Position numbers and translations under genes: made by a program. A DNA stretch of 54,681 nt, taken from positions 1 to 54,681 of the forward strand of contig NZ_JAPDOG010000026.1 in the NCBI RefSeq assembly GCF_026013545.1, read 5' to 3'. The DNA is from Defluviimonas salinarum. GTDB lineage: Bacteria; Pseudomonadota; Alphaproteobacteria; Rhodobacterales; Rhodobacteraceae. Under the pieces are notes generated by a model that saw nothing but the letters and a program-made list of their open reading frames with translations, was not told where the DNA came from and did not search any database. This document shows positions 29,749 through 54,593 of the stretch, one piece after another (the first letter of the stretch is position 1; the number at the start of each line of letters is the position of its first letter).

Positions 29749-30085
29749 GTGTGGGATTTCAGCATTCTGCTCTCGATCACGTTGCTGCTGCGCACGATCC
29801 CGTTCCTGTTCCTAAAAATCGGTGTCTGGATGATCTTCGCGGCCGTCCTCGTCGTCGCGATCTGGGCAGGTGTCTGGTCCATTTCCTATCTGGGCGACCT
29901 TCAGGTGCTGCCCAGAACCGTGCTCTGGCTCGTCCTCGGGGCGCTTCTCGGGCTGGTCGTCGCGATATGGCTCATCCGATGGGCACGGTCCTGGGCCCTT
30001 TATCTGGTCAAGGCGGCCCATATCGCGGTTCTGGTCGAGCTGGTTCAGGGCCGCCCCCTGCCCGCCGGGCGCAGCCAGATCGGCC
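29749..30085 (+). pseudogene. 5' part of a membrane-protein gene, cut by a deletion
   Basis: From GTG 29749 (VWDFSILLSITLLLRTIPFLF) about 112 codons encode two to three hydrophobic helices and the stretch W-A-L-Y-L-V-K-A-A-H-I-A-V-L-V-E-L-V-Q-G-R-P-L-P, which I recall from a proteobacterial membrane protein of roughly 300 residues and unknown function. After Q-I-G the reading changes into the antisense of the helicase gene. The 3' half is therefore gone. An IS5 remnant directly upstream may also have removed its promoter. Confidence 0.5.
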
Positions 30086-35322: not shown

Positions 35323-35787
35323 TTTCACCCCGAAGATCGAAACTACTCAAAGCAAAGCAGAATCCCGCTACAGCGCCGTTGTCCAGTGGGCTTGCAAGCT
35401 TGAGCATGTTAGCAACCCAGCGTTGTGACATTTGCGCAAGGCGTGACCCGAGGGCCGGTGTTGTGGCGGGCACTACCCTCGCGCTGGCGACCTGTGCTTC
35501 AAAAAATCTTCGGGGGTGTTCCAAGCCTCATCCGCAAAGCACTCGCGGGCAACAAACTCGTGCGAAAAAGGGTACGCACGAAGCGGGTGCGCGGCGTCGT
35601 GAAGTGGCCCAGGAAGGACGAGATTTGCCTCGGCATCCGTGACTTCGTGTGACGGGTCTGCCCAAGCGTTGAACCGACAAACGACACTTCGCTGCGTAAA
35701 TCCGTTTCCTGGGCCAGGCTTGCTCTATTGCCGTGCCGGTTGGGCCGCTCTAAGCTCGCACAACCATATGCTATTGCCTCGTGTTTG
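35323..35787. other. Divergent spacer between the two giant helicase genes
   Basis: 465 bases without a convincing gene. A 75-codon frame at 35425-35652 is very basic (R/K-rich) and lacks a ribosome site, so I do not call it. The control regions of both helicase genes must lie here, but no convincing -35/-10 pair was recognised. Confidence 0.5.
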
Positions 35788-38700
35788 ATGGCTTTTTTGA
35801 CGTTCCTAAGAACAAAGGCCGATGACCAGGGGCCTCTGCTCGAGCGGTGTCTGTCGGTTGATCTCGAGGTCAATCCCAAGACCGCCGAGATTTTCGACAT
35901 GGCTGCAGTGCGGTTCGGCGGCGGGCCTGCGGTTGTGGCTCCCAAGAGCAAGATCCGGCAGGGCCTCGACCAGCTCGAAAAAGCGCTGGCGAAAATTCCG
36001 TATGTTATCGGCCACAATATCCTGCGCCACGACCTCGAGCATCTTCTGGCGGCGCGCCCGCGGCTAGCCGCGAAAATGGCCGAGCCCATTGATACGCTTT
36101 GGCTCAATCCGCTGGCCTTTCCGCGCAATCCCTACCACCACCTTGTGAAGCACTACCACGACGGGCGTTTGCAAGCGGGGCATGTAAACGACCCGGAGCT
36201 TGATGCGCGGTTGGTGTTCGAGGTGTTGAGCAACCAGATCAAGGCGCTGACGGAACTGGCCGTGCAGTCGCCCGGAACGCTGCTTGCTTATCACTATCTG
36301 GCGACCCGCATGGACCGTGCCGCCGGGTTTGACGCCGTTTTCAGCGATATCCGCAAAGCGCCCCAGCCGGAACGGGCCGAAGCGCTTGCGGCGATAAAAG
36401 CGTTGCTTGCGGGCAAAGCCTGTGGCGCGCAGGTGGGGTCGCTACTCGAGCAGCTCTCAGACCCGCAGATGGCCTGGCCTATGGCCTATGCGCTCGCCTG
36501 GATCTCGGTATCTGGTGGGGAATCCGTGATGCCGCCCTGGGTGCGGGCGGCCTTTCCGCAAGCCGCGCTGATCGTGCGTGAGTTGCGCGATACGAACTGT
36601 GGCGACAGGGCTTGCGGCTGGTGTGCCGAGATGAACAACCCGGTCGGCGCGCTCAAGAAGTGGTTTGGCTTTGACGGCTACCGTCCCCAGCCGGTGGACA
36701 GTGACGGCAGGCCTCTACAAGAGGTCATCGTCTCTGAGGCCATGGGGCATGCCAATGTCCTTGGCATCCTGCCCACTGGTACGGGCAAGTCAGTCTGCTA
36801 TCAGGTGCCCGCACTCAGCCTTTATGAAAAAACCGGCGCGCTAACTGTGGTGATCTCGCCGCTGGTGGCTCTGATGGCCGATCAGGTGCAAGGGATGGAG
36901 CGTGCCGGGATCTCGTCCGCCGTCACCATCAACGGGATGCTGTCGATGCCCGAACGACAGGACGCGCTCGATCGGGTGCGGCTGGGGCAGGCGGCGATCC
37001 TGCTTATTTCGCCCGAGCAGTTGCGCAGTGTCTCGATCCGGTCGGTTCTGGCACAGCGTGAAGTGGGGCTATGGGTGCTGGACGAGGCGCATTGCGTCTC
37101 GAAATGGGGGCACGATTTCCGGCCCGACTACCGCTACATCGGGCGCTTCATCCGCGAGTTCTCGGGCGACGTGGGCCCCGCGCCGGTGCTGTGCCTGACG
37201 GCCACGGCCAAACCGGAAGTCGTGCGCGACATCACCGAACATTTCCGCGATCGTCTGGGCGTCGAGCTTGGGCTGTTCGATGGCGGGGCCACGCGCACAA
37301 ACCTCTCGTTTTCGGTGCTGGCGACCCGTAAGGAGAGCAAGCTCGGGGATCTGCTGACGGTGATTTCCGAGCGTTTGCCTTCCGGGGATCAATCGGGGGC
37401 GGTTGTCTATTGCGCAACCCGTAAGGAAACCGAACGCGTTGCAGATTTTTTGAAACAACAAGGACTTGCGGCCGAGCATTTCCACGCAGGCTTGACGGCA
37501 GACGACAAGCAGGCGGTGCAGGAGCGGTTCCGCGTGGGTGATTTGCGAGTGATTGCGGCCACCAACGCCTTTGGCATGGGCATCGACAAGCCCGACATCC
37601 GGCTGGTGGTCCACGCAGACATTCCCGGATCACTGGAAAACTATTTGCAGGAGGCAGGACGTGCCGGGCGCGACCGGGCACCCGCCGAATGTGTGTTGCT
37701 CTACCACTCCGACGATGTCGAACGGCAGTTCACCCTGACCGCGCGCTCGCGGCTCGAGCGCCACGAGATTGGCGCCATTCTCAAGGCATTGCGCCGCATG
37801 GACGAGCACACCCGCAACAGCGGCAAGGTGGTGGCGACCCCGGGCGAGATCGTGCGCGAGGAAAAGGACCGCGAGTTCGTGCGCGACAGCGCCACCGACG
37901 ACACACGGGTCAAAACGGCTGTGTCCTGGCTTGAGGAGGCGACGCTCGTCTCGCGTGAAGAAAACCGGGTGCAGGTGTTTCCGTCCTCGCTTCTGGTGCG
38001 TACGCTGACCGAAGCCGAGACCCGCCTGAAAGGCGCCGATATCACGCAGGCGCGGCGCGAGCAGCTTTTGACCATCGTGCGCCACGTGATGAACACACCG
38101 CCCGATCAGGGCATTTCAACCGACGAGCTGACCGGCATCAGCGGGCTTTCACACCGAGAGCTTAGCAAGGCGATGGCCGATCTCGAGACCCTTGGCATCG
38201 CGCGCAATGACATTGCAATCACGGTCTCGGTGCATGTCGGCGTTGAGAACCAATCCCGCCAGCGCATGACGCGCGCGGTGCGGCTGGAAAAGGCGCTCAT
38301 TACCAGGATGCGTGAGCTAGCGCCCGAGGCGGGTGTGGGCGATAGCGCGCCGCTCGACATGGCGGCGGCGAGCCAGCTATTGCGCGGTGAGGGGCATGAG
38401 GACACCAGCCCCCATATCCTTGATCGCCTTTTGCGCAGCATCGAGCGGGACGGCCGGGACAGCGACGGTGGGATGGGCAACATCCGCCTGCGCAAACTTT
38501 CGGCGAAGACGCTCGAGGTGGTGTTGCAACGCTCGTGGCGGGTGGTGGACCAGACCGCCTCGGTGCGCTGGATGGCGGCGGAGAAACTCCTCGATTTCCT
38601 GATTGCCAAGGTGCCAATGGGCACGAAAGGCAAGGATATTCATGTCGATACAACTGTCGGCGACATGCTGGCTGCACTCAGCGGCGATGCCCTGATCAAG

Positions 38701-40929
38701 GCGTCGGGCGTGAAGGACATGACCAAGCTCATGGAACGCGCGCTTCTATGGCTGCACGAACAGCAGGTGGTCACGCTGGGCAAGGGGCTGACAGTGTTCC
38801 GCTCGGCCATGACCATCTACCTGAAACCGGGACGCTCAGGCTTCACCAAAAAAGACTTCTTGCCGCTCGAAGAGCATTACCGCGAGCAGACCCTCCAGAC
38901 CCATGTCATGGCCGCCTATGCCGAAAAAGGGCTGGAGCAGATCAACGAAGCCGTGCGTTTGTCGGAGGACTACTTCGCGCTCGATCAAGACCGCTTCTTA
39001 CAGCGCTGGATGCCCGGCCGCAGCGTCGAGATCCGCCGCCAGACGACCGGCAAGGCCTGGAAGCAAATCGTTGAGGGGCTGGGTAATCCGGTCCAGCAAG
39101 ATATCGTCGCGGATGACCGCGAGGAAACGAACGTGTTGGTCTTGGCCGGGCCAGGTTCGGGCAAAACGCGGGTTCTCGTGCATCGCATCGCCTATCTGCT
39201 GCGGGTCAAGCGCGAGGATCCGCGCGGTGTCCTCGTGCTTACTTACAACCGGCATGCGGCGGCCGAAATCCGCGCGCGTTTACGCCATCTGGTCGGAGAG
39301 GATGCGGCCCGCGTCACCGTCTCGACCTGCCACGCATTGGCGATGCGGCTGGTGGGGGCGAGCTTTGCCGGCGGCGCGTCTGAGCCGCGCGACTTCGACG
39401 GCATCGTGAGGGAGGCCGTACGTCAGATCAACGGCGAGGGCCTGAGCCGCTCCGAGGCTGAGGCCCAGCGTGAGGCGCTCATCCAAGGTTATCGGTGGAT
39501 CCTTGTGGACGAATACCAAGACATCGGCCCCGAGGAATACGCGCTGATCGCCGCTGTGGCCGGGCGATCGCTAGATGATCCCGACCAGCGGCTGAGCCTT
39601 TTTGCCGTGGGCGACGATGACCAGAATATCTACGCCTTTGCCGGGGCCTCGATTTCCTTCATTCGTCAGTTCGAGGAGGATTATCGCGCCAAACCCAAGT
39701 TCCTGACCGAGAACTACCGCTCGACCCGGCACATCATCGATGCTGCCAACCAGGTCATCGAACCTGCGCGAGGCCGCATGAAGGTCGGGCACGCGATCAC
39801 CGTGGACAAGATACGCGGCCTTGATCCCGGTGGCGGGGTGATGGCCCGTTTTGATCCGGTTGGTCAGGGGCGGGTGCAGTTTCTTGATGTGGCGGCCGAT
39901 GACGTTGCACAGGCGGTGGCGGCGGTGGACGAGCTGGTGCGTATCTCGCGGCTCGACCCCAGCTTTACCTGGGCGCGCACTGCGATCATCTCGCGCGACT
40001 GGCGGCGTCTTGGCCCTGTGCGCGCCTATGCCGAGAAGCTTGGTTTGCCTGTCGAGATGGCCAACGAAAAGCTGCCGAGCGTCTGGCGCCTGCGCGAGAT
40101 GCAGCGCCTTGTGGCGAGCTTGCGCAGAAACCCCGCCGCAATGCTCACAGTCCAGGACATTCTCGATGTGCTCAACGAGCAGCAGCCTAATCGCTGGGTT
40201 GATCTCATCGCGGAAGGAATTGCGGATCTCGCCCGCGAACTGGGAAGAAAGACGATTCCCGTTCCCGATACGATCGAGTGGCTTGCAGAATGGTCGCAAG
40301 ACATTCGCGCAACGCAGCGCGGGCTCTTGCTGCTGACCGCGCACCGCTCCAAGGGGCTCGAGTTCGACCATGTTGTGATCCTCAACGGCGGCTGGAAGGT
40401 GCTCTCGCAGGGCGAAGACGGCGAAGCCCCGCGCCGCCTGTTCTACGTGGCCATGACGCGCGCGCGTCGCAGCCTGGCGGTGGTGACAAGCGGGGCGCAT
40501 GCCTTCGTGCTGGCGGACAGCGATTGCGAGATGTTGCGAAAAGTCGAGATGCCGAGGCGGCTCGATCTTCCCGATCCTGATCAGTATCAGGTGCCGGATT
40601 TGACCTCTGTCGATCTGTCCTATGCAGGCCGACTGCCCGAGACCAGCCCGACCATTGTCGCCATCGCCGAAGCGAAGGTCGACGATCCGGTGACGCTTGG
40701 ACGGCGCGACGGGAAATGGATGATCCTCGACCGCAACGGTCGCCTGCTTGGCCGCATGGCCGCGAGCTGGGCGCCGCCAGAGGGAACCGCTCTGGTGTCG
40801 GGTAAAGTGGGCGCGATCGTGCGCTGGCGCAAATCCGACAACGAGGAGCGCTACCAGACCTATATCAAGCGCGACGACTGGGAGACGGTCCTGCCGGAGC
40901 TGGTGTTCCGCAGGAGCGGGCGCGGGTGA
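35788..40929 (+). CDS. Exonuclease-RecQ-UvrD triple-domain helicase
   Basis: About 1,713 residues from ATG 35788; an upstream TTG at 35728 is possible. Residues 20-200: DEDD-type 3'-5' exonuclease (S-V-D-L-E, I-G-H-N-I-L-R-H-D-L-E, H-V-N-D-P-E-L-D-A-R). Residues 310-700: RecQ helicase, with L-P-T-G-T-G-K-S-V-C-Y-Q near 329, V-L-D-E-A-H-C-V-S-K-W-G-H-D-F near 430, F-G-M-G-I-D-K near 593, Q-E-A-G-R-A-G-R-D near 620; the RecQ zinc cysteines are missing. Residues 1100-1580: UvrD helicase, with A-G-P-G-S-G-K-T near 1120, D-E-Y-Q-D-I near 1240, D-D-D-Q-N-I-Y-A-F near 1275, T-A-H-R-S-K-G-L-E-F-D near 1518, Y-V-A-M-T-R-A-R. All three active sites look intact. Divergent from the DUF4011 helicase inside a defence island; a DNA-degrading defence or repair role is inferred. 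Confidence 0.85.
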   Translation: MAFLTFLRTKADDQGPLLERCLSVDLEVNPKTAEIFDMAAVRFGGGPAVVAPKSKIRQGLDQLEKALAKIPYVIGHNILRHDLEHLLAARPRLAAKMAEPIDTLWLNPLAFPRNPYHHLVKHYHDGRLQAGHVNDPELDARLVFEVLSNQIKALTELAVQSPGTLLAYHYLATRMDRAAGFDAVFSDIRKAPQPERAEALAAIKALLAGKACGAQVGSLLEQLSDPQMAWPMAYALAWISVSGGESVMPPWVRAAFPQAALIVRELRDTNCGDRACGWCAEMNNPVGALKKWFGFDGYRPQPVDSDGRPLQEVIVSEAMGHANVLGILPTGTGKSVCYQVPALSLYEKTGALTVVISPLVALMADQVQGMERAGISSAVTINGMLSMPERQDALDRVRLGQAAILLISPEQLRSVSIRSVLAQREVGLWVLDEAHCVSKWGHDFRPDYRYIGRFIREFSGDVGPAPVLCLTATAKPEVVRDITEHFRDRLGVELGLFDGGATRTNLSFSVLATRKESKLGDLLTVISERLPSGDQSGAVVYCATRKETERVADFLKQQGLAAEHFHAGLTADDKQAVQERFRVGDLRVIAATNAFGMGIDKPDIRLVVHADIPGSLENYLQEAGRAGRDRAPAECVLLYHSDDVERQFTLTARSRLERHEIGAILKALRRMDEHTRNSGKVVATPGEIVREEKDREFVRDSATDDTRVKTAVSWLEEATLVSREENRVQVFPSSLLVRTLTEAETRLKGADITQARREQLLTIVRHVMNTPPDQGISTDELTGISGLSHRELSKAMADLETLGIARNDIAITVSVHVGVENQSRQRMTRAVRLEKALITRMRELAPEAGVGDSAPLDMAAASQLLRGEGHEDTSPHILDRLLRSIERDGRDSDGGMGNIRLRKLSAKTLEVVLQRSWRVVDQTASVRWMAAEKLLDFLIAKVPMGTKGKDIHVDTTVGDMLAALSGDALIKASGVKDMTKLMERALLWLHEQQVVTLGKGLTVFRSAMTIYLKPGRSGFTKKDFLPLEEHYREQTLQTHVMAAYAEKGLEQINEAVRLSEDYFALDQDRFLQRWMPGRSVEIRRQTTGKAWKQIVEGLGNPVQQDIVADDREETNVLVLAGPGSGKTRVLVHRIAYLLRVKREDPRGVLVLTYNRHAAAEIRARLRHLVGEDAARVTVSTCHALAMRLVGASFAGGASEPRDFDGIVREAVRQINGEGLSRSEAEAQREALIQGYRWILVDEYQDIGPEEYALIAAVAGRSLDDPDQRLSLFAVGDDDQNIYAFAGASISFIRQFEEDYRAKPKFLTENYRSTRHIIDAANQVIEPARGRMKVGHAITVDKIRGLDPGGGVMARFDPVGQGRVQFLDVAADDVAQAVAAVDELVRISRLDPSFTWARTAIISRDWRRLGPVRAYAEKLGLPVEMANEKLPSVWRLREMQRLVASLRRNPAAMLTVQDILDVLNEQQPNRWVDLIAEGIADLARELGRKTIPVPDTIEWLAEWSQDIRATQRGLLLLTAHRSKGLEFDHVVILNGGWKVLSQGEDGEAPRRLFYVAMTRARRSLAVVTSGAHAFVLADSDCEMLRKVEMPRRLDLPDPDQYQVPDLTSVDLSYAGRLPETSPTIVAIAEAKVDDPVTLGRRDGKWMILDRNGRLLGRMAASWAPPEGTALVSGKVGAIVRWRKSDNEERYQTYIKRDDWETVLPELVFRRSGRG

Positions 40930-41198: not shown

Positions 41199-42173
41199 TC
41201 ACGGCATGGCGGCGAAGTCTGACCGGCGATGCTCGTAGACCATCTCGCGCAGCGCCTGCGGTGCGATCACCTCGACCTTGTCGCCCCATTGGTAGAGGTG
41301 CCACGTCATCTCCAGCCAGCCCGCCGCCCGGAAGCGCACGATCAGGCTGCCGTCGTCCTGGTGTTCCAGCACCTGCCTCGGGTGAAAGCGGAAACCGGCG
41401 GCGCGTTCGGCGGCGTCGGGCGTGAAGCGCCAGATAACTTCGCCGAATTGCGCCGGGTCCTGCCAGACACCGAAGGCCTGCGCGGCGTAGTCGGCAATGG
41501 TGAAGCCCTCCTGCAGTGCGAAGCTTTCGTTCAGGGCTTCGGCCTCGTGGATCAGGTCGATGCGGAAGTTCCGCACTTCCTCCGCTTTCGCGGGGTCGCG
41601 GGCGGCGAGGTAGGTCCGGTGGCCCAGCAGCACCCCGTGCGGTTCAAGGATGCGCGTCGACGTATCCTGATTGTAGCGCACGCGCAGGCGGAAGGGGCCG
41701 CGCAGGGCCTCGATGATCGCATCGAGGATGTCAGGAGCCATGCTGACCCGCGGCCCCGGTCGCGTGACCTGACCCATGGCGGCCAGCACCGCCTCGGCAT
41801 CCGCCTCGATCCGGGCCCGTGCCGGAACCCGTGCCAGCAGCCCGTCGCGCAGGTCGTCCAGCGCCCGGGCGTGGCGCAGCCGACCCTCGGCCTCCGCTGC
41901 GCGGGCCGCAATATCCAACGCTTCCACGCCGGTTTCGTGTCTTAGTTGCATTCGGGCGAGACCAGCATCAACCAGCCGCCAGCGCCGCTTGCGATCCTCT
42001 CCATCCTCGGCTTCGACATTACCAAAGGTCTCCTCCAGCGCATCGGTCATGCGTTGCGCGGTGCGATGGGAGACACGGAACTCCGCGCAGATCTCCTCAA
42101 GGCTGATGCCGCCCCGCCGCGACGCCGCCATCTGCGCGAGGCGGATTAAATCCTGTGCCTTGGAGAAAGACAT
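41199..42173 (-). CDS. WYL-domain transcriptional regulator
   Basis: A 324-residue regulator. Residues 1-65 form a winged helix (I-S-L-E-E-I-C-A-E-F-R-V-S-H-R-T-A-Q-R-M); the middle third is helical; residues about 155-225 are the WYL domain (R-L-R-V-R-Y-N...I-L-E-P-H-G-V-L-L-G-H-R-T-Y-L-A-A-R-D...N-F-R-I-D-L-I), where H-R-T-Y-L-A-A replaces the usual W-Y-L-x-A; the last 90 residues are the WYL C-terminal extension. Such proteins (BrxR/CapW-like) repress defence operons until a nucleic-acid or nucleotide ligand binds. It is divergent from the helicase-nuclease/McrBC unit with a palindrome in the spacer, so it very likely controls that unit. Confidence 0.85.
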   Translation of the reverse strand: MSFSKAQDLIRLAQMAASRRGGISLEEICAEFRVSHRTAQRMTDALEETFGNVEAEDGEDRKRRWRLVDAGLARMQLRHETGVEALDIAARAAEAEGRLRHARALDDLRDGLLARVPARARIEADAEAVLAAMGQVTRPGPRVSMAPDILDAIIEALRGPFRLRVRYNQDTSTRILEPHGVLLGHRTYLAARDPAKAEEVRNFRIDLIHEAEALNESFALQEGFTIADYAAQAFGVWQDPAQFGEVIWRFTPDAAERAAGFRFHPRQVLEHQDDGSLIVRFRAAGWLEMTWHLYQWGDKVEVIAPQALREMVYEHRRSDFAAMP

Positions 42174-42211
42174 GCACGCCCCGCCAGCCAGTCAGAGTTT
42201 GTCACCCTGGC

Positions 42212-42232
42212 ACGCTAGGAAGGTTCCTGCGT
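42212..42232. promoter_or_regulatory. Palindromic operator between WYL gene and defence operon
   Basis: Half-sites ACGCTAGGAA and TTCCTGCGT are separated by GG; they are exact complements except for one extra T on the left. The site is 39 bases from the WYL start and 82 from the start at 42314, a good position for a repressor acting on both directions. Confidence 0.5.
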
Positions 42233-42313
42233 CCTGTCGAGCCGATTCACGAGTGATTTCCATGACGGTTGCAGAGGCACGGCAGGCGCACCAGAGCATG
42301 GAAAGGAATAGCA

Positions 42314-42592
42314 ATGCGTGGAAATGTCATCAAAATTGAACGGACTTCCTCTCGGAGCGGTGCGGTGGAGGAGCCCGCCATCACCGCCAAAGGCTATCAG
42401 CTGGCCGACCCGGCGCATGGCAAGCACAAGCATCATGCCGACCATGCAACCTATGTGAAGACGCTGGATGAGGCGGCGACGCTGATCGAGCGCGGCTTCT
42501 CTCTTTGGATGGGCGCCAAGGGCAAACGTGCCTCTCTGATTGCGCCGAAAAGCCTGCGGATCGTGCGGCAGGACGTCGCGCTTGTCGACTGA
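42314..42592 (+). CDS. Small protein of unknown function, first in the defence operon
   Basis: A 92-residue soluble basic protein. GAAAGGA lies just before ATG 42314. Features: a His/Lys-rich loop (G-K-H-K-H-H-A-D-H-A-T) in the middle, then Y-V-K-T-L-D-E-A-A-T-L-I-E-R-G-F-S-L-W-M, which suggests a helix-strand unit. No family recognised. It sits between the WYL operator and the large helicase-nuclease gene (149 bases downstream), so it is probably expressed with the defence genes. It could be an unrelated small gene captured in the island. Confidence 0.6.
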   Translation: MRGNVIKIERTSSRSGAVEEPAITAKGYQLADPAHGKHKHHADHATYVKTLDEAATLIERGFSLWMGAKGKRASLIAPKSLRIVRQDVALVD

Positions 42593-42740
42593 CGTGCGCA
42601 GCACTCTCGGGCTCTGCGGCACGTTTTAGTCACTTGCGGTACCCGACATGAATTGACACCCATGGCGGTTATTGAAGAAGCTGCGATCCGACGAGACGAT
42701 TCCTCTTTGGGTTGCGCTCATTTGCGATTGAAGGGTGACC

Positions 42741-45700
42741 ATGAGAGATCTCGGCGGCACTATCCTGTTTTCGGCGACAGACCTGATGCGGTTCATGGGC
42801 TGCGCTCATGCGACCACACTCGACCTCTTGCGCCTGCGCGGCGAAGGCCCGGAACCTGGTGAGGATAGCGACGATGCGGCGCTCCTGCAAAAGCAAGGCG
42901 ACGCGCATGAGGCAGCTCATCTGAAACGGCTGAAATCCGCAGGGAGGACGGTGGTCGAAATCCCGCGTGGAAATCTGGTGACAGATGCTGTGACGACACG
43001 GGAGGCGCTCGCCCGCGGGGCGGAGGTCGTCTTCCAGGGCGCGTTCCTATCGGGCAATTGGGGCGGCTGGTCAGACTTCCTGATGCGAGTAAACCGGCCC
43101 TCGGCGCTTGGGTCTTTCGGCTATGAGGTGGCCGACACCAAGCTGAAGCGCCGACCGCATCCGAAGCATGTTCTGCAACTCGTCCTCTATTCCGACCTGC
43201 TGACCGAGATTCAGGGCGTCGCGCCGGAATGCGCGCATGTCGAGCTGGGCAGCGGCGAACGGGCGACGCTGCGGCTCGACGATTACATACATTACGCACG
43301 GGCCGCGCGGGCCCAGCTGGAGGCGTTCGTGGCCGACCCGCAACCGACACGGCCGATCCCCTGCGCCGATTGCGGGCTTTGCCGTTGGAGCGGTCATTGC
43401 GACAGCGTTTGGCTGGCCGAGGACAGCCTGTTCAATGTGGCCAACATCAGCCGCGGGCAGGTGAAGAAGCTGGAGGCCGCAGGAATCGCGATGCTGGAGG
43501 CGCTGGCTGGCCTCGACCACCCCGTGCGAGGCATGGCCGAAGGCACGAGGCTGCGACTTACGACCCAAGCCCGCCTCCAGCATGCCCGCAAGAGCGGGGC
43601 GCCTGCCTATGAGCTACGCGCCCCCGAACCCGGCAAGGGCTTCGACCTGCTGCCCGAACCACAGCCGGGCGATCTGTTCTACGACATAGAAGGCGATCCG
43701 CATTACGAAGGAGGTCTCGAATACCTGCACGGCGTCTGGTGCGATGGGCAGTTCAGGGCCTTCTGGGCTCATGACCACATCGCCGAGGCGAAGGCGCTGG
43801 AGGATCTTCTGGTGTTCTTCCGCGCGCGGCTGGAGGCGTTCCCGCAGGCCCGCATCTACCACTATGCGGCCTACGAGATCACCGCGCTGCGCCGCCTGAC
43901 CACGAAATACGGGATCGGCGAAGCCCTGATCGACCGACTGCTGCGCGAGCGGCGCTTTGTCGATCTGTTCGCCGTGGTGCGGGGAGGGCTGATCGGCTCT
44001 GAGCCGAACTACTCCATCAAGTCGATGGAGGCCTTCTATGGCCGCAAGCGCGACGGCGAGGTCAAGACAGCGGGTGGATCAGTCGTCGCCTACGAGAATT
44101 GGCGCGAAACGAACGATCAGCACATCCTGGACGAGATCGAGGATTACAACCGCATCGACTGCATCTCGACCGAAGAGTTGCGCAATTGGCTGGTAGGCAT
44201 CCGGCCGCCGGACCCCTGGCCCAGGTTGGGCCAGGACGCAGGCGAAAAGGAGGCCGAGGAGGACGCCGAGACGCAGGCGCTGCGTGCAACCCTTGCCGCG
44301 TCGGGTTTGCCCGAGGATCGACAAACGATGCTGTTCAACCTCGGAGTATTCCACAAGCGCGAAGTGAAACCGGCGCAATGGGCGGTGTTCGACTCGGCCT
44401 CCAAGGACGAGGATGAACTCATCGACGATCTTGATGCTCTGGCGGGGCTAGAGGCGATCGGACCGGTGGAGCCGGTGAAGCGATCCTTCGCGCGCAGTTA
44501 CGGCTTTCCGCCGCAGGAGACCAAGCTTCGGGGCGGCAAGAAAGCGACCGTGCCGGTGTTCGACGGCCCTCCCGTCTCGGTCATCATTGACGATATGGAC
44601 CGCAGAGCGCGACGGATCACGATCAAGGCCGGGCCGGGCAAGGAACATCTTCTGGCCGACCGGCTGACGCTACACCCTGACTGGCCGCTGGACACCAAGG
44701 TGATCGCCACGGCCTTGCGCGACGTGATCGCCGATCAATGCGGCCCACGCGCCTACCGTGCGGTTGATGACCTTTTGTCTCGTGCGGCGCCCCGCCTGAC
44801 CACCGGCCCTCTGCAGCCCGTCGTCGATCCGGTTGCGGGCGCCATCGCCGCGGTGGGCGCCATGGATAAGACGGTGCTGCCGATCCAGGGGCCTCCTGGA
44901 ACGGGCAAGACGTACGTCACCGCCCGGGCGATCCTGTCGCTGGTGCGGAAGGGCGCGCGTGTGGGTGTGACCTCGAACAGCCACGAGGCCATCCGAAATG
45001 TGCTGATGGGCTGCCTGAGTGCGCTGGAGGATAACGATCCTGACCTGACGCTGGACCTCGTCCACAAGACTTCGGGCGAGGATGATGGCTATCCCGAGGA
45101 TTGCCCCGTCCGCCGCACCACCAGCAATGACGAGGCCGCAGGCGGAATGTGTGTCGTCGGCGCGACCGCCTGGTTCTTCTCCCGTGACGAGAACGTGCAG
45201 GCTTTCGACTGGCTATTCGTGGACGAGGCTGGACAGGTCGGCCTCGCCAACCTGGCTGCGATGGGCCGTGCGGCGAAGAACATCGTGCTGGTGGGCGACC
45301 CTCGCCAACTGCCGCAAGTCATCCAAGGCGCGCATCCGGAACCCGCGAACCTTTCCTGTCTCGACTGGGTGCTGGGAGACCGTGCCACGGTGCCTCCCGA
45401 CCGGGGCATCTTCCTGCCCGTTTCGCGCCGGATGCACCCCGAGGTCTGCCGTTTCATCTCGGATCTGGTCTACGAGGGGCGGCTGGAAAGCCATCCCGAC
45501 ACCGCGCGCCAGGCCGTCCGCGGCACAAGCTTCCCCGAGGCCGGGGCCTTTTGGGTGCCGGTGCCCCACGAGGGCAATGCGCAGATCGCCGCCGAGGAGG
45601 TCGTTGCCATCAGTGGCACCGTTGCGGACCTGCTAAAGGGCACCTGGACGGATAAGGACGGCACCGCGCGCCCGATGCGCGCAAGCGACATCATCGTTGT

Positions 45701-46025
45701 CGCCCCCTACAACGCACAGGTGAACGCGCTACGCGAAGTGCTACCCGAGGCAATCCGTGTCGGCACGGTGGACAAGTTCCAAGGCCAGGAAGCGCCGATC
45801 TGCCTTGTCTCGATGACCGCGTCCTCGGCCGAGGAAACATCTCGTGGGATGGAGTTCCTGTTCTCGTTGAACCGCATAAACGTGGCCGTGTCCCGTGCGA
45901 AGGGGCTGGCGCTGGTCTTCGGCGCGCCGCGTCTTCGCGAGGCGAAATGCGAGGCGGTCGACCAGATGCGACTGGTGAACACGCTCTGTGCGTTGCAGAT
46001 AGTACCTTTCGGAGAGGGAAGTTAA
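42741..46025 (+). CDS. TM0106-type RecB-like nuclease / RNase H-like / UPF1-like helicase
   Basis: A 1,094-residue protein. N-terminal RecB-like nuclease (about 10-235): W-S-D-F-L-M-R-V, Y-E-V-A-D-T-K-L-K, Q-L-V-L-Y-S-D-L-L, closed by a cysteine set (C-A-D-C-G-L-C-R-W-S-G-H-C, with an upstream G-C-A-H) that fits an iron-sulphur cluster. Middle RNase H-like domain (about 310-490): L-F-Y-D-I-E-G-D-P, I-Y-H-Y-A-A-Y-E, Y-N-R-I-D-C-I-S-T. C-terminal SF1 helicase: G-P-P-G-T-G-K-T near 716, F-V-D-E-A-G-Q, G-D-P-R-Q-L-P-Q, D-K-F-Q-G-Q-E, N-V-A-V-S-R-A-K. Start ATG 42741 chosen for GAAGGG 6 bases upstream. Overlaps the McrB start by one base (TAATG), so it is probably part of the same machine. Confidence 0.85.
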   Translation: MRDLGGTILFSATDLMRFMGCAHATTLDLLRLRGEGPEPGEDSDDAALLQKQGDAHEAAHLKRLKSAGRTVVEIPRGNLVTDAVTTREALARGAEVVFQGAFLSGNWGGWSDFLMRVNRPSALGSFGYEVADTKLKRRPHPKHVLQLVLYSDLLTEIQGVAPECAHVELGSGERATLRLDDYIHYARAARAQLEAFVADPQPTRPIPCADCGLCRWSGHCDSVWLAEDSLFNVANISRGQVKKLEAAGIAMLEALAGLDHPVRGMAEGTRLRLTTQARLQHARKSGAPAYELRAPEPGKGFDLLPEPQPGDLFYDIEGDPHYEGGLEYLHGVWCDGQFRAFWAHDHIAEAKALEDLLVFFRARLEAFPQARIYHYAAYEITALRRLTTKYGIGEALIDRLLRERRFVDLFAVVRGGLIGSEPNYSIKSMEAFYGRKRDGEVKTAGGSVVAYENWRETNDQHILDEIEDYNRIDCISTEELRNWLVGIRPPDPWPRLGQDAGEKEAEEDAETQALRATLAASGLPEDRQTMLFNLGVFHKREVKPAQWAVFDSASKDEDELIDDLDALAGLEAIGPVEPVKRSFARSYGFPPQETKLRGGKKATVPVFDGPPVSVIIDDMDRRARRITIKAGPGKEHLLADRLTLHPDWPLDTKVIATALRDVIADQCGPRAYRAVDDLLSRAAPRLTTGPLQPVVDPVAGAIAAVGAMDKTVLPIQGPPGTGKTYVTARAILSLVRKGARVGVTSNSHEAIRNVLMGCLSALEDNDPDLTLDLVHKTSGEDDGYPEDCPVRRTTSNDEAAGGMCVVGATAWFFSRDENVQAFDWLFVDEAGQVGLANLAAMGRAAKNIVLVGDPRQLPQVIQGAHPEPANLSCLDWVLGDRATVPPDRGIFLPVSRRMHPEVCRFISDLVYEGRLESHPDTARQAVRGTSFPEAGAFWVPVPHEGNAQIAAEEVVAISGTVADLLKGTWTDKDGTARPMRASDIIVVAPYNAQVNALREVLPEAIRVGTVDKFQGQEAPICLVSMTASSAEETSRGMEFLFSLNRINVAVSRAKGLALVFGAPRLREAKCEAVDQMRLVNTLCALQIVPFGEGS

Positions 46026-48823
46026 TGATCGACAATGATGACTGGATGGTTATCCGCAAGGAGCGGGCCTTGGCTTATGGCAAGGAGCTTTCCAGCACGG
46101 AGTTTCTGGTTCGTGCCGGGTCGACCACCATGCGCGAGGGTTCGCCCAAAGAGAAGCGCAATCGCCCTGAGCGTGATCGGCTGGTTGCGTTAGGCGTCTT
46201 GGTGCCTGATGCTAATCCGGCACTCTTTCGATTTGCCAAGGACCATGTCTTTTCCAGCAAAAGCACCGCTGCTGGGGTCGTGATCGACGGCAACAGCAAC
46301 GGCAGCCATTGGAAGAAGGACGGTTCGGACGGCGCAATGGCTGCTTCGTCTGAAACGCAGCAGGCATCACTCGACCTTCTGACGCGGAAGGAAATCGACG
46401 CAGCGATGCGTGACTGCGACCGATTGGGCCTGCATGGCTTCCTTACGAGGCGTGGGTTCGTGCGTCCGCAAGTTTGGGTCAAAGGTAGCGTCGGAGAGCA
46501 GACCTACCCTGCTAAGGCAACCGTTGCGGGAGCTCTCGCGCATTTACCTAATGGCCGTACGCTGTCGGCCAAGGGGTTCTTCAACGGCTTCGGTGAAACA
46601 CAGGCTTTCAGCACGCTGGAGCGGCTTGGGTACGAGGTTGTCAGAAGAGAGGAAGGCTTAGATCCTAAAGTCATAGGGCGCGACGCGATTGAAGCTGCAA
46701 TGGATGCTTATGACGCCTATAGAAGCAGCGGGGCGCACGCGGATGTGTTCGAGGCTTTCGGCGAGCCTCGGGACTATTGGGTAAGATCAACTAAGCTTCG
46801 GCCTAACCAGGTTTATCCCTCAAAACCGCTTCATTTCTGGGCGAACGGAAACAAAGGCAGTTCGGGCGGATGGGGCGGTCCCGCCTACTCGGCTGCGGCG
46901 CTCCACAACTCCGGTTTCATCATCGTTGATCAAGATAACAAGCCGGTTGCTCCGCCAGATAAGGATTATCTCATAAAAGGTGCAGATCGCGCACGGCTTG
47001 TCGCATTGAACTATTTCATTTCTCCCGCCCGTGAGAGGGGGGACGCCCAAGTGGCTGTGCGCGTTGGAGATGTGTCGGAAAATCTATTCCCCAATCATCA
47101 CTATCGCGACGTTTGGCAAGCCTTGAGAGGCAAGGCATTTCAGGATCTGGCGAATGTCACCGAGCCAACACAGACCGGGGTCGATGAGAGTTCGGCGACC
47201 ATCCTCACATATCAACTCACCCCTTCGAGAGGGCAGCCCAGCATGACCCCTGACTACTCCGCCCAGACGCCCGCGATCAACCTGATCCTATACGGCCCCC
47301 CCGGCACCGGGAAGACTTATCGAACAGCCTGGGAGGCGGTACGCCTTTGTCTGGGGAGCGAAGCGGCTGCGTTCCTCCAGGGTGATGAACAGCGTGACGC
47401 GCTGATGGCTGAGTATCGGCGGTTGGTCAGCGAGGGGCGAATTGAGTTTGTGACGTTCCACCAATCCATGTCCTATGAGGAATTCGTCGAAGGACTGCGG
47501 CCAAGCACAGGAGACGAAGCGTCCGAGGTCGCGGCAGAAATGGACGTCAGTAACGGTTTTCGGTTGAAGCCCCACGATGGAGTATTCAAGCGCGTCAGCG
47601 AGCGCGCAAGGCTTGATCGATCTGACAACGGTACAACGGAGCGTCTCGACCGATCCGCGCGTGTTTTCAAGGTGGCTCTTGGAAGACGGCAGGTCGAAGA
47701 TGACAGGATCCGCTTTGGCCTGGATCACGGTTTGATCCATATCGGCTGGGGAGGAGATATCGATTGGTCGGACGAGCGGTTCGATGATTTCAACGGGATA
47801 TTCTCCGAATGGAGGTCCAAGCGCGATCCGGAAGCGACCGGCAACGATGGTAACATCGTTATGACCTTCTCGTTCAGGGCGGATATGCAGGTGGGCGATT
47901 ACGTTGTCGTCTCCGATGGGCGAGACCGAATCCAAGCGTTTGGCAGGGTCGCTGGAGAGTATTTCTATGATCCTGATGCCTCATTCCATCCGCACCGACG
48001 CATGGTAGAGTGGATGTGGCGCGACGATGCGGGTGTCGAGCGCGATCGTTTCTACCCGAACGGCTTTCGCCGCCATTCTGTTTACAAGCTGAACCAGGGT
48101 CTCGTCGACTGGGACGCACTCGAGGCGATCGTGTTTGGCGATGAAGCGCCTCGGGCAAGCCAATCCGCGCGAAACCACGTTCTCATCATCGACGAAATTA
48201 ACCGCGCCAACATTTCAAAGGTCTTCGGCGAATTGATCACGCTTCTGGAGCCGGACAAACGTTTGGGCCTTCAGAATGAGATCCGGCTCATGTTGCCCTA
48301 TTCGAAGAGGCCATTCGGTGTACCAGCGAACCTGCACATCATCGGCACCATGAACACGGCCGACCGATCCATTGCGCTTCTGGACACCGCCCTCCGCCGG
48401 AGGTTCACGTTTCGCGAACTGATGCCGGAGCCCGGGGCGCTGTCAGCTGACGTTGAAGGGATCAACCTGCAGAAGTTTCTGCGCACAATCAATGAACGGA
48501 TCGAATACCTGTTCGATCGCGAACACCAGGTCGGGCATGCCTATTTTACCGGCTGCGACACCCGTGCCAAGATCGCTGCGGTGATGCGATACAAGGTGAT
48601 CCCGTTGCTGGCTGAGTACTTCTACGAGGATTGGTCGAAGGTCGCCGCAGTTCTGGGCGATGCGGCGCAAAACAATCCACGGTTCCTGGTGCGAGAAGTC
48701 ATCACCGCTCCAACCGGGTTGGACAACGACACGTTCTCCGGCGCGCGGTATCGCTGGCGCGTCCGGCCCGAGGTCCAAGGCGATAGGAATGGCGGCTTCG
48801 ACTTCACAGAGTTCGAAGTCTGA
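46025..48823 (+). CDS. mcrB: McrB-family AAA+ GTPase with duplicated N-terminal modules and EVE-like insert
   Basis: A 932-residue protein. N-terminal half: two similar modules of about 80-100 residues, near 135-210 (R-P-Q-V-W-V...T-Y-P-A-K...F-N-G-F-G-E-T-Q-A-F-S-T-L) and near 245-310 (R-P-N-Q-V-Y-P-S-K...G-G-W-G-G-P-A-Y-S-A-A-A-L). Walker A G-P-P-G-T-G-K-T near 424 follows; then F-H-Q-S-M-S-Y-E-E-F-V-E-G-L. Residues about 540-690 are an inserted EVE/PUA-like domain (V-F-K-V-A-L-G, I-H-I-G-W-G, G-D-Y-V-V-V, H-R-R-M-V-E-W). The AAA core resumes with I-I-D-E-I-N-R-A-N-I-S-K-V-F-G-E-L near 720 and G-T-M-N-T-A-D-R-S-I-A-L-L-D. These features define the motor of type IV McrBC restriction; the extra domains would read modified nucleic acid (inference). 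Confidence 0.88.
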   Translation: MIDNDDWMVIRKERALAYGKELSSTEFLVRAGSTTMREGSPKEKRNRPERDRLVALGVLVPDANPALFRFAKDHVFSSKSTAAGVVIDGNSNGSHWKKDGSDGAMAASSETQQASLDLLTRKEIDAAMRDCDRLGLHGFLTRRGFVRPQVWVKGSVGEQTYPAKATVAGALAHLPNGRTLSAKGFFNGFGETQAFSTLERLGYEVVRREEGLDPKVIGRDAIEAAMDAYDAYRSSGAHADVFEAFGEPRDYWVRSTKLRPNQVYPSKPLHFWANGNKGSSGGWGGPAYSAAALHNSGFIIVDQDNKPVAPPDKDYLIKGADRARLVALNYFISPARERGDAQVAVRVGDVSENLFPNHHYRDVWQALRGKAFQDLANVTEPTQTGVDESSATILTYQLTPSRGQPSMTPDYSAQTPAINLILYGPPGTGKTYRTAWEAVRLCLGSEAAAFLQGDEQRDALMAEYRRLVSEGRIEFVTFHQSMSYEEFVEGLRPSTGDEASEVAAEMDVSNGFRLKPHDGVFKRVSERARLDRSDNGTTERLDRSARVFKVALGRRQVEDDRIRFGLDHGLIHIGWGGDIDWSDERFDDFNGIFSEWRSKRDPEATGNDGNIVMTFSFRADMQVGDYVVVSDGRDRIQAFGRVAGEYFYDPDASFHPHRRMVEWMWRDDAGVERDRFYPNGFRRHSVYKLNQGLVDWDALEAIVFGDEAPRASQSARNHVLIIDEINRANISKVFGELITLLEPDKRLGLQNEIRLMLPYSKRPFGVPANLHIIGTMNTADRSIALLDTALRRRFTFRELMPEPGALSADVEGINLQKFLRTINERIEYLFDREHQVGHAYFTGCDTRAKIAAVMRYKVIPLLAEYFYEDWSKVAAVLGDAAQNNPRFLVREVITAPTGLDNDTFSGARYRWRVRPEVQGDRNGGFDFTEFEV

Positions 48824-50145
48824 TGGCCGCCTTCAGTGTCCTGGAATACCGGTCGCTCCCCCGCGGTGACGGGCCCGGTTGCATTCCGGACTTGCTGGCT
48901 GATCGTTTGGCCGCAGTCGCCAAGGCCTCAACCTTTGCTGGACGGGGCGAAGGTGGCGTTCTTGAGGACCGTCGGCATGAATTGCGGGCCCGCGGCGTGG
49001 TGGGCGTCGTCGCAGCCGAGGATTGCAGCCTTGAGATCCTTCCAAAGATCGACGTGCCCGCCGCGGACGGCTCCGTCGAGGAGCGAAGCGAAATCCGTAA
49101 GCGTCTTGTTCATATGCTCGCCGTCGCGCTGGACATGAAGATCGAGACCGGGCGCTTGTCGTATCTGGACTGGCAGAACGAGACGCTTCTCGAAATCCTG
49201 ATCCGAATATTCTGTGACAAGCTGACGGAAGCCGTCCGTCGCGGCATGCCTCGGCGATATATCGGCCACGAGGACGACTTGCCCACATTACGTGGCACCC
49301 TCGACGTGCCCCGCCAATTCACCCGCCATGCAGTAAACCCCAGCCGCCTTGCATGCCGGTTTGACGAGCTGTCGACCGACATCGCACTGAACCGCATCAT
49401 GAAGGCGGCACTTGCCCATCTTTCCAGGCTGTCGCGCAGCTTCTCTAACCTTCAGCGGCTTCGGGAACTGGCATTTGTCTACGCGGATATTTCTTCTGTT
49501 CCGGTGCCCGCTCTGCCTTGGGGCGAGGTCGTGATCGATCGAACCAATCGCGGCTGGCAGGACCTAATCGGGATGGCGCGGATGTTCCTGCGCAACCAGT
49601 TTCAGACGACGAGCACCGGTGCCAGGCAAGGAACTGCGCTTCTGTTCGAAATGAACACGCTTTTCGAGGAGTATGTCGGGCGACTGGTCGCGCGCTCGAT
49701 GGCCGGGACGGAGTACCGTGTCAGTCTGCAAGGAGGCCGGGAGTACTGCCTCACGGAGCAAGATAGTGGTCGCCAGGTTTTTCAGACCAAACCTGACATC
49801 CTGATCCGCCGTGGCGGCCAGGTTGTTCAGGTGATCGACACCAAGTGGAAGCGGATATCCTCCCGCATCGATGATCCCAAACAGGGCGTTTCCCAATCCG
49901 ATGTATACCAGATGATGGCCTACGCCCATCTTTACAAAGCGCCCCGCGTGACGCTGCTTTATCCCCATCACATTGGGCTTTCGGGGGCCGATGGAATCCA
50001 AGGACAGTTCTGGATAACGGGTCAGGCGACGGCGCTTGAAATGGCGAGTATCGATGTGGCACTCGGCACCGATGACGCCGTCGTAGCGCGCCTCAAGAAA
50101 ATGGTGGGGTCCTCAATTGGCGAAGACCTCCAGGCCCTCCCGTGA
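48823..50145 (+). CDS. mcrC: McrC-family nuclease subunit
   Basis: A 440-residue protein. N-terminal half: McrC beta-rich adaptor (V-L-E-Y-R-S-L, G-V-V-G-V-V-A-A-E-D-C-S-L-E-I-L-P-K-I). C-terminal PD-(D/E)xK nuclease: L-F-E-M-N-T-L-F-E-E-Y-V near 275, K-P-D-I-L-I near 325 and V-I-D-T-K-W-K near 340, with the Q-S-D-V-Y-Q-M-M-A-Y-A-H helix. Catalytic residues are all present. ATG overlaps the mcrB stop (TGATG). It should be activated by the McrB ring to cut nucleic acid. Confidence 0.9.
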   Translation: MAAFSVLEYRSLPRGDGPGCIPDLLADRLAAVAKASTFAGRGEGGVLEDRRHELRARGVVGVVAAEDCSLEILPKIDVPAADGSVEERSEIRKRLVHMLAVALDMKIETGRLSYLDWQNETLLEILIRIFCDKLTEAVRRGMPRRYIGHEDDLPTLRGTLDVPRQFTRHAVNPSRLACRFDELSTDIALNRIMKAALAHLSRLSRSFSNLQRLRELAFVYADISSVPVPALPWGEVVIDRTNRGWQDLIGMARMFLRNQFQTTSTGARQGTALLFEMNTLFEEYVGRLVARSMAGTEYRVSLQGGREYCLTEQDSGRQVFQTKPDILIRRGGQVVQVIDTKWKRISSRIDDPKQGVSQSDVYQMMAYAHLYKAPRVTLLYPHHIGLSGADGIQGQFWITGQATALEMASIDVALGTDDAVVARLKKMVGSSIGEDLQALP

Positions 50146-53574: not shown

Positions 53575-53789
53575 CTACAGAATTGACAAACTACCCCCTA
53601 ATGGTTGCACTTTGATTAAAAACTGGAGCTTTGCTTTTAAGAAAAACGGGTTCTGATGTTGGGTTGGGTAGCCTCTGCTCTGCCCCTTGGCTCTGTTGAT
53701 GGCGTGGATGCCCCCACCTGACGGCATCGCAATGTGCCAATGTTTCAATGTGATGAGTGTTGAAGCCATCACAGAAGGAGGGAGCATCC
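53575..53789 (+). other. Presumed left non-coding end of the IS110 element
   Basis: These 215 bases precede the transposase and hold no gene. IS110-family elements encode their bridge RNA in such a non-coding end. Possible stems include ATGTGCCAATG/CAATGTGATG-type partial repeats near 53730-53755, but I cannot fold the sequence reliably here. Confidence 0.3.
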
Positions 53790-54593
53790 ATGTCCGAGGT
53801 TACGATTATCGGGATCGATCTGGCAAAGCGCATTTTCCACCTGCACGGTGCCGGCCGCGACGGGTCCGCCGTGTTTCGCAAGAGGCTTTCCCGTGGCCAG
53901 CTACTGGGGTTCGTGTCGCAGGTGCCGCGGTGTGTTATCGCCATGGAGGCATGTGCGACGGCGCATGACTGGGGCCGTGATTTCGAGAAGCTCGGACATG
54001 AAGTGCGCCTAATCCCGCCAGTCTATGTGAAGCCATTCGTCAAGCGTCAGAAGAACGATTCCGTTGATGCCGAGGCAATCGTCGAAGCGGCATTGCGCCT
54101 GTCGATGCGCTTTGTCGCGCTGAAGACGGAAGGTCAGCAAGCCCGCGCCATGTTGTTTCGGACGCGGCAGATGTTTGTCGGGCAGCGCACTCAAATGATC
54201 AACGCCCTTCGCGGGCATCTCGCCGAGCACGGCCTGGTCGCGGCGAGAGGGACTGCCCACCTCAAGAAACTTGCGAACGCGATCGAAGACATCAACACAA
54301 ACTTGCCCGTCGAAGTCCGGGACCTCGGCCAGATGTATCTGAGGCAGATCGGGGAGTTGACCGAACGCATTGCGGAACTCGGCCTCAAGATGGGCTAGGC
54401 TGCCAAGAACACGGCCGCGGCACGCCGCGCTCAAACCATGCCTGGCGTCGGGCCGGTCACGGCACTGGCGATCGAAACGTTTGCACCTGACCTGTCCAGC
54501 TTTCGGCGCGGTAGGGACTTTGCTGCGTGGCTGGGGCTAGTGCCCCGCCAGCATTCGACAGGAGGCACCGAAGTTCATCAGTTGAACGCGTAA
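53790..54593 (+). pseudogene. IS110-family transposase, broken by an in-frame TAG and truncated
   Basis: ATG 53790 follows GGAGGGAG. The N-terminal RuvC-like DEDD domain is intact: I-G-I-D-L-A-K at residues 6-12, A-M-E-A-C near 50, N-D-S-V-D-A-E-A-I near 87. TAG at 54396-54398 ends it after 202 residues. The same frame continues through the transposase_20 domain (M-P-G-V-G-P-V-T-A-L-A-I-E-T-F, F-A-A-W-L-G-L-V-P-R-Q-H-S-T-G-G) to TAA at 54591-54593, where homology breaks off after S-T-G-G-T-E. The last 90 or so codons, carrying the catalytic serine region's end, are missing. The element is probably dead. Confidence 0.75.

Follow-up and report, generated by a model that had tools for sequence, protein, structure and literature searches.

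The window, a 54,681-nucleotide stretch of Defluviimonas salinarum DNA (contig NZ_JAPDOG010000026.1), carries an operon in which a divergent WYL regulator is followed by a TM0106-type helicase-nuclease, McrB and McrC. Comparison with related loci argued that the constant part of this operon is the regulator-helicase pair, and that McrBC is one of several unrelated cassettes exchanged directly behind it. We give a little better than an even chance to the operon being a plasmid-mobile chassis, in which interchangeable cassettes recognise or cut DNA and the helicase-nuclease degrades it. The regulator (324 aa, 41199..42173, minus strand) was placed by open reading frame (ORF) coordinates and domain matches. 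On the plus strand, the helicase-nuclease (1096 aa, 42735..46025) was identified by family and domain matches, McrB (932 aa, 46025..48823) as the first variable cassette gene by matches to solved McrB GTPases, and McrC (440 aa, 48823..50145) as the second by PF10117 and solved McrC chains. The length of the helicase-nuclease is counted from a GTG start; an ATG two codons in is a plausible alternative. Its stop codon (46023-46025) shares 1 nt with the McrB ATG at 46025, and the McrB stop shares 1 nt with the McrC ATG at 48823. The gene order, coordinates and start-stop overlaps given by a first-pass annotation of this DNA were all borne out by the ORF and stop/start positions, and the motifs that it had pointed out, GPPGTGKT and VIDTKWK, are both present.

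The best 80 of 118 relatives of the helicase-nuclease were tallied for what lies behind the helicase. McrBC was found in 31 loci, Tiamat-type TmtA in 22, sacsin-domain proteins in 6 and other defence-type sets in 6; the rest had a lone DUF4357 protein (2), nothing recognised (8) or contigs that ended too soon (5). Cassettes were typed by hidden Markov model scans on representatives of each type and by tblastn (E up to 1e-6) for the others. Three loci with a second cassette behind McrBC (L011, L046 and L073) were counted as McrBC, and two where McrBC-like genes lie at a greater distance or on the opposite side (L013 and L080) were not. The first-pass annotation had read the three enzymes as one dedicated system. 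One coupled unit behind a divergent WYL gene did recur, with McrBC behind the helicase in those 31 of the 80 nearest loci and in 3 of 15 opened plasmid loci. The dedication to McrBC, however, did not hold: 44 of the 75 loci with a readable downstream side had no McrBC behind the helicase, 36 of them carrying another cassette or a DUF4357 gene and 8 nothing recognised.

The point of exchange was visible in near-identical operons. A Mesorhizobium locus with DUF4357 and TmtA (L044) and an Aquibaculum locus with McrBC (L071) shared 95.5% DNA identity over 4.9 kb. This match began 1.6 kb upstream of the helicase and ran to 8 nt beyond its aligned end, 3 nt after the stop codon; identity then fell to 51% over 100 bases, and past the cassette it rose again to 91.3% over 503 bp. 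The same break and resumption were seen between L060 and L071, and identity broke within a few codons of the helicase end in L035/L036, L026/L036 and L016/L022. Windowed identities for L035/L036, L022/L038 and L021/L031 were out of register and were set aside; a separate comparison of these pairs was used in their place. The cassette differed in 7 of 15 pairs with helicase DNA identity of at least 95%, in 18 of 31 at 93% or above and in 30 of 52 at 90% or above, where random pairing would give 65% differing cassettes. On a helicase tree of 65 rows (the window and 64 named-cassette loci, without the partial L068, two DUF4357-only loci and 13 unrecognised or short-contig loci), 27 cassette changes were counted; the shuffled mean was 28.6 and 53 of 200 shuffles were as low, showing that cassette type retains almost no trace of helicase ancestry. 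The start of the following gene was measured in 63 loci, across unrelated cassettes, and in 51 of them it fell between -34 and +17 nt relative to the helicase stop, overlaps of -4 and -1 included; the search began at -40 nt and the first start was used, a choice that biases the gaps towards small and negative values. In 4 of the 67 cassette loci (L018, L019, L032 and L051, all McrBC by tblastn) no gene was found by this measurement. Taken as a comparison of sequences, exchange of cassettes at the core boundary is well supported.

The helicase-nuclease matched TIGR03491, 'TM0106 family RecB-like putative nuclease', at 255.8 bits over residues 14-486 (curated cut-off 97.45 bits) and belongs to that family. 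The matching region (42774..44192, plus strand) holds the RecB residues D114, D134, K136, Q148 and Y152, together with cysteines C23, C213, C216 and C222 of the RecB domain. Pfam matches were obtained to RNase_H_2 (E 4.7e-26; about 43674-44195, plus strand; D317, E319, Y471 and D475), AAA_12 (E 4.8e-25) and AAA_11 (E 1.8e-15), the last two covering the C-terminal helicase part. The superfamily 1 (SF1) helicase core lies at 44841..45932 on the plus strand with Walker A K725 and Walker B D830/E831, and the nearest solved helicases were SMUBP-2, UPF1 and DNA2. Residues were aligned over the window plus 75 of the 80 loci (5 were dropped for stops or length) and 12 distant loci, one of which was entered twice (L102 = L181). 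All of the named RecB, cysteine, RNase_H_2 and Walker residues were invariant apart from gaps in the 76 close and 12 distant rows. Among the close rows, C23 was present in 75 (one gap), Q858 in 75 (one E) and R1054 in 75 (one gap). With the catalytic residues invariant, all three catalytic parts look intact, and the earlier view of this protein as two nuclease folds plus a helicase agrees with the domain matches. The RNase_H_2 part, with D317/E319 and Y471..D475, looks like a DEDD-type exonuclease. A four-cysteine pattern is typical of Cas4/AddB/Dna2 nucleases, and we read the four cysteines of the RecB domain as a probable iron-sulfur (Fe-S) cluster.

Eukaryotic Dna2 likewise joins a RecB-type Fe-S nuclease to an SF1 UPF1-like helicase in one chain, and the Dna2 structures 5ean and 5eaw were among the best solved matches; the core described here differs by its extra RNase_H_2 domain and its bacterial, defence-type context. 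Mokosh systems (MkoA/MkoC), in which a helicase is joined to a kinase or PLD nuclease, were considered and rejected: the PADLOC match to MkoA was best in the helicase part (residues 898-1078), and no kinase or PLD was among the Pfam matches. The closest published idea found was that of UvrD-Cas4 helicase-nuclease fusions, as described in the accessible part of PMC5704561. Compared with that description, the core here differs by a UPF1/DNA2-type helicase, an extra DEDD-type domain, a constant regulator and cassette exchange at the DNA level.

In the window the cassette is a type IV McrBC. McrB matched solved McrB GTPases with a best E of 1.1e-55, and its GTPase motif, MNTAD, is of the NxxD class. 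Of 27 other McrB in the cluster, 26 also had MNTAD and the remaining one (L041) had MNAAD, which is also NxxD; L001, a cut copy of the window, was left out of this count, and the McrB of L018, L019, L032 and L051 fell outside the cluster. McrC matched PF10117 (E 8.7e-76) and solved McrC chains, and its PD-(D/E)XK residues (E282, D325, D339, K341 and Q363) were complete in 30 of 30 aligned McrC. An McrB-type AAA+ GTPase thus adjoins an McrC with an intact nuclease site as in known McrBC. Here, however, the pair stands behind a helicase-nuclease with a WYL regulator and can be exchanged as a cassette.

The GTPase of McrB is interrupted, after Walker A (47294) and before Walker B (48191), by an EVE/YTH-like domain (47633..48169, plus strand). 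The fold was recognised as EVE/YTH, and W127 and W129 of the insert were invariant in 27 rows. This insert was swapped as a block, with the surrounding McrB DNA mostly 80-99% identical, and such insert-only replacement marks it as the likely specificity unit. The insert fits the fused or inserted specificity domains described for McrBC in the part of PMC11090510 available to us. From the insert fold, GTP-dependent cleavage of modified DNA by McrBC is plausible. Residues 216-304 of McrB (46670..46936, plus strand) form a possible ScoMcrA head-like domain. The N-terminus of McrB is a DUF4357-like module (46025..46333, plus strand; 55% over 103 aa), the same module as a stand-alone 109-aa protein before TmtA in other loci. 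The N-terminus of the L011 McrB and the stand-alone DUF4357 protein of L059 were 94.8% identical. PF14267 scored 43.1 bits on the stand-alone form of L044 and 30 bits on the window McrB, below the cut-off of 38.4. The module thus occurs either as the N-terminus of McrB or as a separate small gene before three TmtA types and an Ank/sigma-domain gene.

The Pfam name RNase_H_2 denotes a fold superfamily, and UPF1-like helicases act on both RNA and DNA. In CoCoNuTs of types II and III, the UPF1-like CnuH has OB folds and, following Walker A, a large helical insertion. The first-pass annotation had suggested action on RNA or RNA-DNA hybrids, a suggestion that found no support: the nuclease motifs resemble a DEDD exonuclease and Cas4/AddB/Dna2-type DNA enzymes. 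Membership of the CoCoNuTs was rejected on the GTPase motif, which is NxD there and NxxD in the window. A CoCoNuT-like scheme, with the UPF1-like helicase, the RNase-H-like domain and McrBC all acting on RNA or hybrids, would draw on UPF1 being among the nearest solved helicases and on the McrBC genes that adjoin UPF1-like SF1 helicases in CoCoNuT types II and III (PMC11090510, as far as its accessible part goes). We consider it very improbable, given the NxxD motif, the PD-(D/E)XK residues kept in every aligned McrC and an N-terminal nuclease of the RecB/Cas4 kind, which is a DNA-cutting kind. Measured against the same part of that source, the system here differs further in that the helicase is fused to two nucleases and is not tied to McrBC.

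Adjacency was then checked in a set of 390 genomes, as the first-pass annotation had proposed. Of these, 31 had the helicase (E up to 1e-100), 32 places in total, and 44 had McrC (E up to 1e-30), 48 places in total, two of the McrC places probably being fragments of a single gene. There were 14 same-strand cases of helicase and McrC within about 5 kb, which exceeds chance, the expectation by our own estimate being below 0.01. No McrC stood beside the helicase at 18 of the 32 places, some of them near contig ends, again contrary to a helicase dedicated to McrBC. By tblastn, 38 plasmid records held the helicase, 19 of them typed conjugative. Among the 15 plasmid loci that were opened, the helicase was followed by McrBC in H2, H6 and H9 (the McrC of H9 being an unannotated match), by TmtA in H1 and H3, by a TmtA-like sequence with a weak match in H20, by SbcCD-like pairs in H11 and H12, and by a cytosine methylase set in H22; the other 6 had an unclear cassette or none. 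The searches for relatives overlap and some genomes are the same records, so counts were not summed.

Under the favoured reading, the operon would be a defence unit made of a fixed degradation engine and an exchangeable part for recognition and first attack. In its McrBC state, modified DNA would be recognised through the insert reader and then cut, and the helicase-nuclease would unwind and digest from the DNA ends. From the translational coupling, the DUF4357 module and the recurrence of the arrangement, we infer that core and cassettes cooperate biochemically. Recurrence extended to homologues of 35-45% identity in other families or classes, 8 of 18 of which adjoined McrBC, TmtA-like or SNF2-like genes. 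McrBC was seen in L203, in L205 (in convergent orientation), in L206 (ahead of the helicase, which comes third), in L207 (McrB) and in L201 (on the far side of WYL); L204 had a TmtA-like gene (23% identity), and L200, L201, L207 and L177 had SNF2-like genes, mostly weak matches.

Several observations weigh against this reading. The other 10 distant homologues (L172, L174, L175, L176, L178, L199, L202, L208, L209 and L212) had no such neighbour in the stretch seen, indicating that the tie between helicase and cassette is old and recurrent but not universal. Recognised cassettes were missing from 8 of 75 readable cores, and 34 of the 48 McrC places in the 390 genomes had no such helicase nearby, showing that core and McrC can each live alone. 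No protein that would have to dock on the helicase is common to the cassettes, DUF4357 being found in a subset only, and the sole pair above 97% helicase identity had the same cassette. Conservation of the helicase is partly built in, since all comparisons start from helicase similarity, and the argument for cooperation is a comparative one throughout.

The lone cores and lone McrC, together with plasmid H5, which likewise had no recognised cassette, suit the main rival explanation. Here WYL and the helicase-nuclease would be an independent defence or repair unit, a landing platform into which defence genes recombine and gain shared expression without biochemical cooperation; its regulated promoter and its sequence conservation would make it a favourable site for this. 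A right flank holding ParB-like genes and a recombinase (as we read them) was common to several chromosomal loci, and the boundaries of exchange are consistent with homologous recombination in this flank and in the shared core. Such a platform is possible, though we think it rather unlikely: it does not readily account for start-stop coupling with unrelated cassettes, for a DUF4357 module common to different cassettes, or for recurrence at 35-45% identity in other gene orders, such as McrBC before the helicase in L206. Most cassettes also look directed at nucleic acid, which is not claimed for TmtA.

A constant sensor with variable effectors is common in defence, as in CBASS and Lamassu, and the core could be read in the same manner. 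The helicase-nuclease would then sense DNA ends or damage, as reported for HamB of Hachiman, and the cassette would be the effector that it releases; a helicase-controlled nuclease is reported for Hachiman in the accessible part of PMC12278908. This order of events appears unlikely, however. The core has two nucleases of its own with intact residues and the McrBC cassette has its own reader-like domain, so that the cassette looks like the specificity part.

The regulator carries WYL and WCX domains (Pfam), and a divergent WYL gene was found at most 2 kb away in 64 of 71 loci having at least 1.7 kb of upstream sequence. The closest solved proteins were 9pfq and 8tp8 (E about 1e-43), followed by 9cu3 and 7tzv. 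The match to 8tp8, which we take to be DriD, covered residues 3-317 (E 1.6e-43) and that to 7tzv residues 138-317 (E 1.5e-29). By sequence relationship over the helix-turn-helix, WYL and WCX domains, the regulator falls with DriD-type WYL proteins. 7TZV is DriD with single-stranded DNA (ssDNA), and DriD is described as an ssDNA-binding transcription activator of Caulobacter in the part of a preprint available to us (PMC12340889). BrxR is described as a repressor in the accessible part of PMC9122601. According to those portions of the two sources, BrxR/CapW and DriD are WYL proteins like the regulator here, and BrxR-type ones adjoin diverse defence systems; they differ from it in the target operon. 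Between the regulator and the operon, a conserved intergenic block (42190..42241, to which no strand applies), found by comparison of intergenic regions, is a candidate operator. Of the 67 intergenic regions compared, 31 had the loose motif (N)GTCA-N5-TG(A/T)CA, against a shuffled mean of 0.09, and 25 had its strict inverted form; in the window just the loose motif is present, as AGTCA-N5-TGTCA at 42190-42204. CTGTCGA(G/T) occurred in 53 of 67 regions (shuffled mean 0.23), and the conserved element CTGTCGAG lies at 42234-42241 in the same block.

A constant core with a variable partner is known as a logic. What appears new is this core, with whole-system cassettes exchanged at its stop codon, for which no description was found in the literature searched. 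The known systems that stand here as alternative cassettes were not described with this helicase-nuclease core in the literature covered, much of it seen in part and the original Tiamat paper lying outside it. The first-pass annotation could not name the three-enzyme order, and McrBC, TM0106 and helicase together were likewise not found in print in our searches, most subscription journals being outside them. No title naming this core was found in further literature searches, and a 2026 survey of BREX-related systems shows, in its accessible part, a different helicase-nuclease (PMC12839542).

Upstream of the helicase-nuclease, ORF 42269-42592 (plus strand) has an ATG at 42314 and gives a 92-aa protein (42314..42592), which was matched in 24 of 80 loci; family scans of the window proteins returned no match for it. 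At 29812-35328 (minus strand) lies an 1838-aa protein that matched PADLOC PDC-S37 (E 0) and also, at E 6.9e-169, the antiphage helicase Hhe; as a second defence gene, it makes the window a defence island. A 1733-aa fusion of RecQ-type and UvrD-type helicases (35728-40929, plus strand) has an N-terminal part that is DEDD exonuclease-like by eye; close relatives of this fusion adjoin the core in L041 and L049 (69%) and lie in its vicinity in L181 and L182. Near the right window end, a frame at 53757-54398 (plus strand) is IS110-type transposase-like by eye, and an annotated IS110 transposase is also found near plasmid locus H1.

Other loci showed further neighbours. An annotated HEPN-domain gene was found in L213, L214, L218, L220 and L221, just past WYL (H1, H2 and H6) or one gene further (H11 and H12), and may be a further optional core part. 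SbcCD-like exonuclease/ATPase pairs (L179, L180, L218, L220, L221 and L222) either separated WYL from the helicase, followed the helicase or lay on the far side of WYL. Two distant helicases with 38% identity (L174:5620-9700 and L175:4782-8840) shared two genes downstream, for proteins of about 530 and 825 aa, possibly, at a guess, a ligase-helicase repair operon. The distant helicases of L201:879-8650 and L177:1178-8170 had a common three-gene set (about 480-650, 440-460 and 1060-1230 aa), with a weak SNF2 match in the third gene. On a Phenylobacterium plasmid (L225:3100-6457), a helicase (45%) stood behind a ubiquitin-like set (multiubiquitin, E2 and ThiF). The copies recorded as Oceanobacillus (L017) and Nocardioides (L031) fell inside alphaproteobacterial clades; these records are probably mislabelled or contaminated assemblies.

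Taken together, the comparisons suggest one shared DNA-processing engine with interchangeable recognition parts. If the helicase-nuclease does work with the cassettes, McrBC, Tiamat and MORC-type restriction would have a shared downstream engine in Alphaproteobacteria, and tests of cassettes alone would miss it. Near-identical operons with different cassettes are natural swaps for separating specificity from destruction, and replacement of the EVE/YTH-like insert in McrB is a natural chimera. The conserved core also offers a search handle: the gene that follows it is probably a defence system, recognised or not.
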